From an uncultured Holdemania sp. (GTDB lineage Bacteria > Bacillota_I > Bacilli_A > Erysipelotrichales > Erysipelotrichaceae), in assembly GCA_904395815.1 (NCBI GenBank), contig CAJFOC010000008.1, positions 1 to 64,000 on the forward strand: a stretch of DNA of 64,000 bases, in the 5' to 3' direction. The translations under genes were made by a program, and so were the position numbers. Below, piece after piece: positions 11,323-51,462 of this stretch (position 1 is the first letter of the stretch; every line of letters starts with the position of its first letter). The notes beneath the pieces were generated by a model. The model was given only the letters and a program-made list of their open reading frames with translations, did no database searches and was not told where the DNA came from.

Positions 11323-11350
11323 TTGACTTTTATGAAATTCAGGGTACACT
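11323..11350 (+). promoter_or_regulatory. Promoter of the lysine-riboswitch transcript
   Basis: TTGACT (11323-11328) and TACACT (11345-11350) with a 16-bp spacer. Transcription would start just before the riboswitch aptamer. Confidence 0.65.
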
Positions 11351-11363
11351 ATTACCATAAAAC

Positions 11364-11538
11364 AGAAACATAGAGGTAGCGGTGCAGAAGAGTATCCTGA
11401 AGGAGCCGGCGGGCGCAGAGATCAGGAGAAAGGCAATCACCGCCGAATGACCGTCTCTTTCGCCAGGGAGCTGTCATGGGGCTGCTGGAAATACCTGCAG
11501 CACTCCTTCAGAATCTGAAGAGGAGCTATTGCATGATC
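11364..11538 (+). promoter_or_regulatory. Lysine riboswitch (L box)
   Basis: The leader matches the lysine aptamer core in order: AGAGGTAGCGGTGC with AAGAGTAT (11372-11394), CCT..GGAG, GAGAAAGGCAATCACCGCCGAA (from about 11426), an arm with GGGAGCTGTCATGG, and the closing GAGGAGCTATTGC (11519-11531) pairing back to the 5' CATAG. The order and spacing parallel the B. subtilis lysC leader. An intrinsic terminator follows at 11554-11588, so control is probably by lysine-induced transcription termination. The controlled gene is the peptide-binding lipoprotein at 11615. Confidence 0.82.
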
Positions 11539-11553
11539 GGAAAGAGTTCACAG

Positions 11554-11588
11554 CCGCGCTTGTAATAGACCGCGGTTTTTGTTTTGTT
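11554..11588 (+). terminator. Riboswitch-controlled terminator
   Basis: CCGCG (11554-11558) pairs with CGCGG (11571-11575), followed by TTTTTGTTTTG. It lies between the L box and the start codon, where a ligand-gated attenuator is expected. The 5-bp stem is short, so the fold needs structure prediction. Confidence 0.6.
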
Positions 11589-11614
11589 CCATACTGTAAG
11601 GGAGGAAAGCACAC

Positions 11615-13240
11615 ATGAAAAGAGCATGGCCCATTCTGGCTACAGCCCTGATGCTGATGATCAGCGGCTGCGGCAGCCAAAGCGGCACCGCCGGATCGGA
11701 CAGCGGTTCCGAAGGTCTGACCGTCGCCCTCGGCGGCCAAATCACTACCCTGGATCCGGGACTGTCTCAGGAAACCGTCAACGACTATATCCTTCGCCAT
11801 ACGACGGCCGGTTTGTTTCATACCGATGAAAACGGCCAGACTGTCAACGATCTGTGCCAGGATTACACGGTCAGCGAAGACGGCCTGACCTACACCTTTA
11901 CGCTGCGTTCCGGCGTTCAGTGGAGCGATGGACAGCCGCTGACGTCAGATGACTTCGAATACGCGATCATCCGCAACCTGACCTATGGAGCAGACAACGC
12001 CTGGTCCATCTACTACCCATCCACTTATCTGGCAGGAGCGGCAGAGATCGCCGGCAACAGCGATCTGGATCCGACCGTCACTACCATCGAAGGAGTGGAA
12101 ACGCCGGATGACAGCACTCTGGTTCTGCATCTGACCAAGCCATGCGCCTGGTTCATCCAGATGCTGACCAACGACGTCTGGCGGCCATTGCGGGCAGACT
12201 TCGCCGACGCCCATGATTCGCTGTGGTCGCTGGAAGCCGGCTACCCTTCTGTCGGTCCATACCTGCTGCAGTCCTGCAATGAAAACGAGCGGGCGGTGAT
12301 CGTCAAAAACGAAAACTACTATAACGCGGATGAGGTGGTCATGCCGCAGATTACTTTCCTGGTCATGACCGACGCCGACGCTCAGGCGCTGGCTTTCCAG
12401 AACAATGAAACCGATATCGCGCTGAACATCACGGCAACCCTGGCTGAATCTTACAGCAATCCGGAAGAACTGTGGAACGTTCCGCAGATCTCCAGCTATT
12501 TCATCGCTCTGAATTCCGGCGAGTCCGGCCCTGCGTACCTGGATGACGTCAACGTCCGCCGGGCTCTGGCGCTGGCCATTGACAAGGAAGCGCTGGTCGC
12601 CGCCATCGGCAGCGAAGATTATTACCGCGTTTTGCACGGCTATGTTCCATACGGCCTGAATGGCGCCACATCTGACTTCCGTGAGGAACAGGATGCAGTC
12701 GAACGCTTTCTGGAATACGATCCGGAAACCGCCCGTCAGCTGCTGGCACAGGCCGGGTATGATGAAAGCAATCCGCTGAGCATCACCTACAAGTATTCTC
12801 AATCCGTCCTGCACGCCGATGTCGCGCAGATTCTGCAGCAGATGTGGGAAGCGGTCGGCATTCAGTGTGAATTGCAGGTCGTGGAATCCGGCGTTTTCTA
12901 TAACCAGATCGATAACGGCGATTTTGAACTGGCCCGCTATGGCTACAGTTCAGGCGATGATCCGTCGCAGTTTCTGAACCTGTGGACTACCGGTCAGCAG
13001 ATCGTCGCCGCCGTGGATGATCCGGTCTATGATCAGATGGTGGATGAAGCCAGCTATCTTGTCGATCATACCGAATACATGAACGCCATGCACGCAGCCG
13101 AACGCTATCTCATTCAGGAACAGGTCTATCTGATTCCGCTGTTCAACTACAACACGCCGGCGCTGAAGAAAACTTCCGTCCAGGGCGTGGAAATGTGGGG
13201 ACTTGTTCCTTACTATGGCAAGGTGACTCTCACCGCCTGA
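11615..13240 (+). CDS. Oligopeptide ABC transporter substrate-binding lipoprotein (OppA/DppE family)
   Basis: The 541-residue SBP_bac_5 protein has a lipoprotein signal (lipobox 'MISGC', Cys18) and family motifs 'LDPGLSQETVNDYILRHTTAGLF', 'LTYTFTLRSGVQWSDGQPLTSDDF', 'VGPYLLQ' and 'VNVRRALALAIDKEAL'. It captures peptides outside the membrane for an ABC permease. No permease or ATPase gene adjoins it, so it must use a remote Opp/Dpp complex. The lysine riboswitch ahead of it implies expression when lysine is scarce, and so uptake of lysine or lysine-containing peptides. That substrate is inferred from regulation only. AAGGGAGG precedes the ATG. Confidence 0.95.
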   Translation: MKRAWPILATALMLMISGCGSQSGTAGSDSGSEGLTVALGGQITTLDPGLSQETVNDYILRHTTAGLFHTDENGQTVNDLCQDYTVSEDGLTYTFTLRSGVQWSDGQPLTSDDFEYAIIRNLTYGADNAWSIYYPSTYLAGAAEIAGNSDLDPTVTTIEGVETPDDSTLVLHLTKPCAWFIQMLTNDVWRPLRADFADAHDSLWSLEAGYPSVGPYLLQSCNENERAVIVKNENYYNADEVVMPQITFLVMTDADAQALAFQNNETDIALNITATLAESYSNPEELWNVPQISSYFIALNSGESGPAYLDDVNVRRALALAIDKEALVAAIGSEDYYRVLHGYVPYGLNGATSDFREEQDAVERFLEYDPETARQLLAQAGYDESNPLSITYKYSQSVLHADVAQILQQMWEAVGIQCELQVVESGVFYNQIDNGDFELARYGYSSGDDPSQFLNLWTTGQQIVAAVDDPVYDQMVDEASYLVDHTEYMNAMHAAERYLIQEQVYLIPLFNYNTPALKKTSVQGVEMWGLVPYYGKVTLTA

Positions 13241-13251
13241 TTGTCTGTCTG

Positions 13252-13282
13252 AAACTCCGGGACTGTGTCCCGGAGTTTTTTT
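13252..13282 (+). terminator. Intrinsic terminator after the peptide-binding gene
   Basis: Perfect 11-bp arms (13252-13262 with 13268-13278), a 5-nt loop and a T7 tract. Confidence 0.9.
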
Positions 13283-49284: not shown

Positions 49285-51213
49285 TTAGCGTACGATCGTG
49301 CCGACCGGCAAATGACTGATGGTGACGACTTCGAGCTGATCTTCGCTCATGCCGGCCAGAATCATACCCTGCGACAGCACGCCGCGCAGCTTGGCTGCGG
49401 CCAGATTGGTGACGACCACGACCTTGCGGCCGATCATTTCTTCCGGCTTCACGCTGCCGGCAATCCCGCTGACGATCTGCCGCGGCTGCTGTTCGCCGAC
49501 ATCGATCTGCGATACCAGCAGTTTGTCCGCCTTCGGATGTTTCTCACAGGCAATGACCTGTCCAACCTTCATCTCAATGCGGGAGAAATCTTCGATCGTG
49601 ATCTGCGGTTTGGCTTTTTCCGCTGGCCTGGTTTCTTCTTTTTTCGGCTGATCGGCCTCGATCTGTTCCAGCATCAGCTTTTCATCAATGCGGGCAAACA
49701 GGATCTGCGGCTTCTCAATGATGCGCAGGTTCTCTTCCAGCGAACCGAAAGCCAGGGCTGAGGCATAGCTGCGCTGACAGGTCTGCAGCTGATCGAGAAT
49801 GCGCTGGGAGGTCTGCGGCAGAAAGCTCTGCAGCAGAATGGCCGCAATGCGGATCCCTTCCAGAAGATGATACAGCACGGTTGCCAGACGCTCCTGTTTC
49901 TGAGGATCCTTGCCCAGCGCCCATGGCATCGTCTCGTCGATGTATTTGTTGCACCGCCGAAGCAGCGTGAAGATCTCATCGATCGCATCCGCCACCCGCA
50001 GCTCATCCATTTTCGCGCGGACTCGCTGCGGCGTCATCTGAATGAGCTGAATCAGCTCCTCATCCACCGGCTCGCGCACCTGCGGATTGCGCACCACGCC
50101 GTTGAAATACTTGTTGGTCATCGACAGCGTCCGGTTGACGAGATTGCCGAGGATGTTGGCCAGATCGGAATTGATCCGCTCGATCATCAGTTCATAGGTT
50201 ACCGTGCCATCCTGGGCAAACGGAATTTCATGCAGCATGATATAGCGCACCGCATCCACGCCGAAGTAACGGACCAGATCATCCGCATACATCACGTTGC
50301 CCTTGGATTTGGACATTTTGCCATCGCCAACCAATAGCCACGGGTGACCGAACACCTGTTTCGGTAACGGCAGATCCAGCGCCATCAGCATGATCGGCCA
50401 GTAAATCGTATGGAAACGCAGAATGTCCTTGCCGATCAGATGGACATCGGCCGGCCAGTAACGCTTGAATTTTTCGTCGTGATGACCATCGGCGTCATAC
50501 CCCAGACCGGTGATGTAGTTGGTCAGCGCGTCGATCCAGACATAGACGACATGCTTCGGATCAAAATCCACCGGTACGCCCCAGGAAAAGGAAGTCCGCG
50601 AAACGCACAGATCCTGTAATCCCGGCTTGATAAAGTTGTTGATCATCTCGTTTTTGCGGGATTCCGGCTGAATGAATTCCGGATGTTCTTCGATATGCTT
50701 CAGCAGCCGGTCGGCATACTTGCTCATGCGGAAGAAATACGCTTCCTCCTTCGCCTTTTCCACCGGCGCGCCGCAATCCGGACATTTGCCGTCCACCAGC
50801 TGGCTTTCGGTGTAAAACGATTCGCACGGCTTGCAATACCAGCCCTCATATTCTGACTTGTAAATATCTCCCTGCTCATACAGGCGACGGAAAATTTTCT
50901 GCACCTGCTTTTGATGATAGGGATCCGTGGTTCTGACGAAGTTGTCGTACGAGGTGTCCATCAAATCCCAGATCTGGCGGATCTGCGAAGCGACGGTATC
51001 GACAAACTGCTGCGGCTCAACCCCGGCCGCCTTCGCCTTGTCCTCAATTTTCTGGCCGTGTTCATCCGTACCGGTCTGAAAGAACACATCGTACCCCAGC
51101 ATCCGCTTGTAGCGGGCAACGCTGTCCGCCAGCACGATTTCATAGGTGTTGCCGATATGCGGCTTGCCTGAGGTATAGGCAATCGCCGTAGTAATGTAAT
51201 ATTTCTCGTTCAT
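49285..51213 (-). CDS. metG: Methionyl-tRNA synthetase
   Basis: The 642-residue class I synthetase has the 'AYTSGKPHIGN' HIGH-like motif, the zinc knuckle 'CKPCESFYTESQLVDGKCPDCG', KMSKS ('DGKMSKSKGN') and the C-terminal tRNA-binding (EMAP-like) domain ('RIEMKVGQVIACEKHPKADKLL'). It charges tRNA-Met for initiation and elongation. A Met-specific T-box leader precedes it (51242-51462), so uncharged tRNA-Met turns it on. Confidence 0.97.
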   Translation of the reverse strand: MNEKYYITTAIAYTSGKPHIGNTYEIVLADSVARYKRMLGYDVFFQTGTDEHGQKIEDKAKAAGVEPQQFVDTVASQIRQIWDLMDTSYDNFVRTTDPYHQKQVQKIFRRLYEQGDIYKSEYEGWYCKPCESFYTESQLVDGKCPDCGAPVEKAKEEAYFFRMSKYADRLLKHIEEHPEFIQPESRKNEMINNFIKPGLQDLCVSRTSFSWGVPVDFDPKHVVYVWIDALTNYITGLGYDADGHHDEKFKRYWPADVHLIGKDILRFHTIYWPIMLMALDLPLPKQVFGHPWLLVGDGKMSKSKGNVMYADDLVRYFGVDAVRYIMLHEIPFAQDGTVTYELMIERINSDLANILGNLVNRTLSMTNKYFNGVVRNPQVREPVDEELIQLIQMTPQRVRAKMDELRVADAIDEIFTLLRRCNKYIDETMPWALGKDPQKQERLATVLYHLLEGIRIAAILLQSFLPQTSQRILDQLQTCQRSYASALAFGSLEENLRIIEKPQILFARIDEKLMLEQIEADQPKKEETRPAEKAKPQITIEDFSRIEMKVGQVIACEKHPKADKLLVSQIDVGEQQPRQIVSGIAGSVKPEEMIGRKVVVVTNLAAAKLRGVLSQGMILAGMSEDQLEVVTISHLPVGTIVR

Positions 51214-51241: not shown

Positions 51242-51462
51242 AAAAAAACGTCCTGTTTAAGGACGCTGATCGCGCGGTACCACCTTACTTCATATCTTCC
51301 GATATGCGCTTGCTTCTTAACGCGAAGTCACGTCTTGCCTTACTGCACTTCAGGCAACCGGTTCCAAGTCCATGTTCTCCCTGACCCTTCACTCCCGCTT
51401 GCACCTGACCGGGCTCTCTGCCGCTGAAAATCCAGGGATACTCTTCTCTTCTTTACCTTTAC
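51242..51462 (-). promoter_or_regulatory. T-box leader with Met specifier, controlling metG
   Basis: On the minus strand the leader has the AGAGAG...GGTGCAAGCGGG Stem I opening, a specifier region with GAACATGGAC (codon ATG), and the T-box AAGGTGGTACCGCG (51273-51286). It ends in a terminator stem (CGTCCT 51249-51254 with AGGACG 51260-51265 and T7 at 51242-51248). Uncharged tRNA-Met should stabilise the antiterminator. Confidence 0.92.

Follow-up and report, generated by a model that had tools for sequence, protein, structure and literature searches.

A lysine riboswitch precedes a solitary OppA-type lipoprotein gene in Holdemania and may place peptide import under lysine control

In the stretch of 64,000 nucleotides from an uncultured Holdemania sp., a gut bacterium, that was analysed here (the window), we found a complete lysine riboswitch in front of a gene encoding an OppA-type lipoprotein. 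The explanation we favour, with moderate confidence, is that this gene encodes an accessory binding protein that is repressed by lysine and serves an oligopeptide permease, whose genes are located elsewhere in the genome.

The leader was matched by the Rfam model RF00168 over its full length (model positions 1-182, 78.3 bits, gathering score 30, E 9.2e-19). This agrees with the earlier note on this DNA, which had proposed an L-box here; of the span it gave, 11364-13240, the gene end (13240) is exact and the aptamer start is one base off (11363). Among 135 aptamers of the family (Erysipelotrichaceae), wherever one base is kept in a column by 90% or more, neither the window aptamer nor those of the three orthologous leaders deviated, and only insertions in gap columns differed. 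The conserved junction nucleotides forming the ligand pocket are present by comparison with the same 135 aptamers, and the junction sequences of the four OppA leaders described below are those of leaders before amino-acid ABC transporters. A riboswitch variant for another ligand was ruled out by the conserved columns, and a chance RNA match was ruled out by the covariance score together with the conservation in four of four genomes. A promoter-like pair was found upstream by pattern scan; chance alone would give 1.5 such pairs in the region, so the single one found is weak by itself, but its position fits.

Between the aptamer and the gene there is a hairpin followed by a U-run, as the earlier note had also described, and it is kept in all four orthologous loci. 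In the window this terminator has a folding energy of -10.3 kcal/mol and a z score of -1.7 against shuffled sequences, which is modest and the weakest of the four leaders; in the three others the values are -14.3 to -15.3 kcal/mol, with stems of at least 7 pairs. Conservation in the four leaders is a stronger argument for a terminator than the folding energy. The promoter and terminator pattern scanner overlooked it because its loop limit is 8 and the terminator loop is longer. Energy minimisation of the whole leader did not return the native aptamer fold and was uninformative. The alternative pairing, the antiterminator, contains 10 pairs in the three orthologous leaders and 8 in the window, where two of the ten are lost. 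As predicted from the pairing, antiterminator and terminator share strands in each of the four leaders and are mutually exclusive.

From this layout, and by analogy with known L-box terminators, the leader would be an OFF switch. At high intracellular lysine the aptamer would bind lysine and helix P1 would be stabilised; with the P1 3' strand occupied, the terminator hairpin would form and transcription would end before the gene. At low lysine the P1 3' strand would instead pair with the terminator loop, and the lipoprotein would be made. It would then bind extracellular peptides that yield lysine and would most likely pass them to the OppBCDF permease encoded in a separate operon with an arginine T-box. 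Judged from the leader, regulation of the window gene by lysine is very likely.

Table 1. Features of the window locus and of the lysine riboswitch loci in mycoplasma-type genomes.
Feature	Position or locus	Strand	Remarks
Sigma-70-like promoter	11323..11350	+	TTGACT-16-TACACT; ends 13 bases before aptamer; pattern scan
Lysine riboswitch aptamer (L-box)	11363..11536	+	RF00168
Aptamer P1 3' strand, also antiterminator 5' strand	11526..11533	+	CUAUUGCA; predicted 8 pairs with 11561-11568
Intrinsic terminator between aptamer and gene	11552..11581	+	stem 11552-11558/11571-11577; U-run from 11576
Antiterminator 3' strand, inside terminator loop	11561..11568	+	UGUAAUAG; predicted to pair with 11526-11533
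Shine-Dalgarno GGGAGG	11600..11605	+	sequence
OppA-type (SBP_bac_5) lipoprotein, 541 aa	11615..13240	+	Pfam PF00496; starts 78 nt past aptamer
Terminator 3' of gene	13251..13282	+	-21.3 kcal/mol, z -6.5
L-box and oppABCDF loci	L321-L326		genomes G276, G220, G191, G270, G231, G212
L-box and oligoendopeptidase F homologues	L265, L278, L280, L291, L293, L295, L298, L314, L319, L320		

The encoded protein has a signal peptide and a lipobox (ISGC, residues 16-19, the cysteine being residue 19), and it matched PF00496 (SBP_bac_5) with 261.6 bits against a cut-off of 32.4 (E 1.5e-77). In a Foldseek search with its AlphaFold2 model (pLDDT 90), the best fold matches were MppA, DppE and OppA, and complexes with lysine peptides were included among the matches; by sequence, the nearest solved relative is B. 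subtilis OppA. The NCBIfam equivalog cut-offs for OppA were missed (165 bits versus 947 for NF011684, and 131 versus 650 for Opp4A), and therefore we propose only that the protein works like an accessory OppA and do not claim membership in the OppA equivalog.

The upstream neighbour, a D-Ala-D-Ala carboxypeptidase gene, lies divergently on the opposite strand. Downstream, a strong terminator is followed by minus-strand genes, and the window gene is monocistronic. No permease or ATPase gene was found next to it, so that the name orphan given to it earlier is right for this locus; for the genome it is not, since Opp permease and ATPase genes are present elsewhere.

Four Holdemania genomes were compared, namely that of the window and those of H. 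filiformis, H. massiliensis and Holdemania sp. Marseille-P2844. Orthologues with the same leader were found in all four, the riboswitch directly preceding the gene in each case, and the orthologous proteins are 73-74% identical to the window protein. The three other leaders (G105, G079 and G035) scored 79.7, 83.3 and 78.4 bits with RF00168. We also fetched the gene behind 135 lysine riboswitches of the family; cluster names besides SBP_bac_5 and SBP_bac_3 were assigned by eye from the sequences. Binding proteins of amino-acid ABC transporters (SBP_bac_3) stand behind 75 of them and lysA behind 27, followed by NhaC-type genes (11), dapA (6), AGCS (5) and APC (4) transporters and three single cases. 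SBP_bac_5 genes account for the remaining four, all in Holdemania, and none was found behind the roughly 130 other L-boxes surveyed; the pairing of L-box and SBP_bac_5 was not widespread in this family sample. In a motif search, neither a T-box nor an L-box core motif was found upstream of 26 more distant family homologues.

The genome of the window contains a second lysine riboswitch, which precedes an SBP_bac_3 protein of a lysine/arginine/ornithine-type ABC transporter. Of the aptamers compared, this one comes closest to that of the window (74% identity), and the two leaders share the terminator arrangement; on these grounds the window leader was probably recruited by copying from the leader of the SBP_bac_3 transporter. 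The gene behind the other lysine riboswitch differs within the genus: it is of NhaC type in the three larger Holdemania genomes (L019, L020 and L027), and the SBP_bac_3 ABC transporter takes its place in the genome of the window (L072).

Contig C23 of the same genome carries a complete oppA-B-C-D-F operon whose first gene encodes a paralogue with 71% identity to the window protein, and the permease subunits of this operon are nearest to oligopeptide permeases by NCBIfam. In the three relatives the operon is also complete and has two oppA genes; the second oppA is full length there and N-terminally truncated in the genome of the window (C23:79580-80317, about 264 residues). In the tree, the clade of L-box OppA proteins is sister to the clade of operon OppA proteins, with support of 87/86 and 96/99. 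Since both clades occur in four of four genomes, the duplication, by this tree, is older than the genus. At 24 alignment positions the lysine and the arginine sister clades are fixed for different residues. The window protein is likely to use a permease of the C23 type, with which it would dock.

The C23 opp operon sits behind a T-box (RF00230, 111.9 bits). The position of the specifier was calibrated on T-boxes of the same genome before leuS, tyrS, cysS, alaS, metG, valS, thrS, ileS, lysS and hisS, and the resulting rule places the codon one base before the last stem strand and nine bases before the end of the GGAG-like motif. The T-box used for metG (gene at 49285-51213, minus strand) lies in the window itself, at 51256-51462 on the minus strand, with specifier AUG. 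By this rule the specifier of the opp operon is CGC, arginine.

The pattern was found again in other paralogues. A third orphan OppA paralogue, present in the three relatives (L096, L097 and L098), has its own T-box with specifier CGC (arginine). A more distant orphan SBP_bac_5 lipoprotein (C13:15757-17343, L073; orthologues L246-L248), present in all four genomes, is preceded by a T-box (L122) whose specifier reads CUG, leucine, by the calibrated rule, asparagine (AAC) being the next possibility; this protein is probably under a leucine-sensing T-box. To judge from these leaders, the peptide-binding proteins of Holdemania are placed one by one under RNA sensors that each respond to one amino acid, and they probably feed a shared Opp permease. 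The earlier note had recorded neither the arginine T-box of the partner operon nor the repetition of the pattern.

Neither lysA nor argH was found over the curated cut-offs in any of the four Holdemania genomes, the argH-like matches being all far below. A LysA-like match in the genome of the window (148 bits, cut-off 298) has an amino-acid adenylation gene as its neighbour, and we did not take it for lysA. The genome of the window is 94.7% complete, so the agreement of the four genomes on these absences is what counts. The missing genes fit auxotrophy for lysine and arginine. The earlier proposal that the protein works with an Opp permease encoded elsewhere gains from the missing lysA and from the 71% identity to the OppA of a complete operon; its other part, lysine peptides as the ligand, stays conjectural.

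For this ligand, peptides that yield lysine are our best guess, and we lean towards them. In OppA proteins an aspartate (Asp419 in Salmonella OppA) anchors the alpha-amine of the peptide. This aspartate is replaced in 14 of 14 proteins of the Holdemania clade, which read SSG-DDP or TAS-DDP instead of xADYxDP, and is retained in 19 distant family homologues. The loss maps to residues 441-450 of the window protein beside a one-residue deletion, and the call depends on the alignment there. As the anchor is missing, classical peptide binding is not assured: either the DDP motif close by, for example, may have taken over the anchoring, or the protein would bind something other than an ordinary peptide.

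The absent aspartate also speaks for a lysine transporter with an unusual binding protein, one whose ligand would be lysine, or cationic amino acids, in free form and which would deliver it to a family-5 ABC permease, and so do the amino-acid transporters that most lysine riboswitches of the family precede (75 of 135 being SBP_bac_3 operons) and the non-peptide ligands, such as nickel chelates and sialic acid, that family-5 proteins can take in solved relatives. However, the nearest folds and sequences are peptide binders, the permease of the paralogue is of oligopeptide type, and for the free amino acid this genome already possesses an SBP_bac_3 transporter controlled by an L-box; we regard free lysine as an unlikely ligand.

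A role in recycling lysine-containing murein peptides, as for MppA and DppE with murein tripeptide, appears less likely again. In its favour, the top fold matches, MppA and DppE of B. subtilis, both bind murein tripeptide, although the open or closed state of the compared structures may account for this ranking. The gene adjoins the divergent D-Ala-D-Ala carboxypeptidase; however, none was recognised beside the orthologue in the three relatives (ORF lists, inspected by eye), so this neighbour looks unconserved. Wall lysine could be recovered by a lysine auxotroph, but nutrient scavenging agrees better with the arginine T-box of the sister protein. Finally, it is very improbable that the leader is a relic or chance transplant, a working riboswitch before a gene whose product is unrelated to lysine: another lysine-regulated operon was evidently the source of the leader, and such copies can land before unrelated genes, but it was kept in four of four genomes despite the drift of OppA to 73-74% identity, T-boxes for other individual amino acids precede the sister and cousin paralogues, so that amino-acid logic is general here, and the same pairing occurs independently in mycoplasma-type genomes.

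This independent case was found among lysine riboswitches sampled in 149 genomes of the phylum. In six mycoplasma-type genomes (0.8-1.0 Mb, translated with TGA as tryptophan), a lysine riboswitch of 67-76 bits directly precedes oppA, followed by homologues of oppB, oppC, oppD and oppF, and the lipoprotein behind the riboswitch scores above the NCBIfam threshold of the mycoplasma OppA family. At L325 and L326, a second lysine riboswitch was found before two small lipoproteins adjoining the opp operon. Behind ten further riboswitches of mycoplasma-type genomes lie genes of one cluster of oligoendopeptidase F homologues, of which one member was tested and was over the pepF cut-off. As the OppA proteins of Holdemania and of the mycoplasmas are not closely related to each other, the pairing of lysine riboswitch and opp genes probably arose at least two times. 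Lysine riboswitches L271, L302, L306 and L259 lie upstream of candidate genes for CoA-transferase or beta-keto acid cleavage (assigned by eye), and these are possibly tied to lysine fermentation.

Returning to the accessory binding protein that we favour, a wider scheme can be put forward tentatively, with somewhat less than even confidence. Peptide import in Holdemania would be addressed by amino acid: paralogous lipoproteins, each led by an RNA sensor for a single amino acid (a lysine riboswitch, an arginine T-box and probably a leucine T-box), would each take peptides rich in that amino acid and share one or a few Opp permeases, and the same logic would have arisen independently in mycoplasmas. 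OppA-type proteins are usually regarded as broadly specific, and their substrates are hard to assign. Were each of them expressed under a single-amino-acid sensor, its substrate bias could be read from the sensor, and peptide specificity would become testable; the cell may select peptides for import by which amino acid runs short. The lysine riboswitch regulon would be widened from lysine synthesis and import to peptide import in Holdemania, and to import and digestion in the mycoplasma-type genomes, a step reached twice independently.

Among known systems, the L-boxes before amino-acid ABC transporters of the lysX-lysY type have the aptamer, the junction sequences and the terminator arrangement in common with the window leader. 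They differ in the target, which in the window is a single OppA-type lipoprotein and no lysine permease or biosynthesis gene. The main text of a lysine riboswitch survey (PMC5584792) lists no OppA-type lipoprotein as a target, nor does it mention an oligopeptide permease (oppABCDF) behind a lysine riboswitch. It was already reported there that a lysine riboswitch precedes oligoendopeptidase F in Mycoplasma (PMC5584792); that riboswitch is likewise tied to peptide use, the target being a peptidase in Mycoplasma and a binding protein in Holdemania. Beyond lysine biosynthesis and lysine permeases, which the earlier note gave as the main targets of known lysine riboswitches, both this peptidase (PMC5584792) and the whole opp operons of the mycoplasma-type genomes stand behind such riboswitches.

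T-boxes (RF00230) are known before amino-acid transporters, and the opp operon and orphan binding proteins of Holdemania are likewise led by T-boxes; here, however, oligopeptide binding proteins are controlled with an arginine (or leucine) specifier. Our search of the open literature returned no case of a T-box with such a specifier on an oligopeptide binding protein, which does not prove that none exists. The sharing of one permease by orphan OppA proteins is already known: OppA4 and OppA5 of Borrelia share one Opp permease (PMC5736914), and the orphan AliA and AliB of pneumococcus work with the Ami permease (PMC11192437). As in Holdemania, these are paralogous OppA proteins, some encoded apart, with one permease and differentially regulated binding proteins. 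Their regulation runs through c-di-GMP, RpoS or CodY (PMC5736914), whereas in Holdemania it is assigned to cis-acting RNA sensors for single amino acids, and these sensors, different ones for different paralogues, are what is new.
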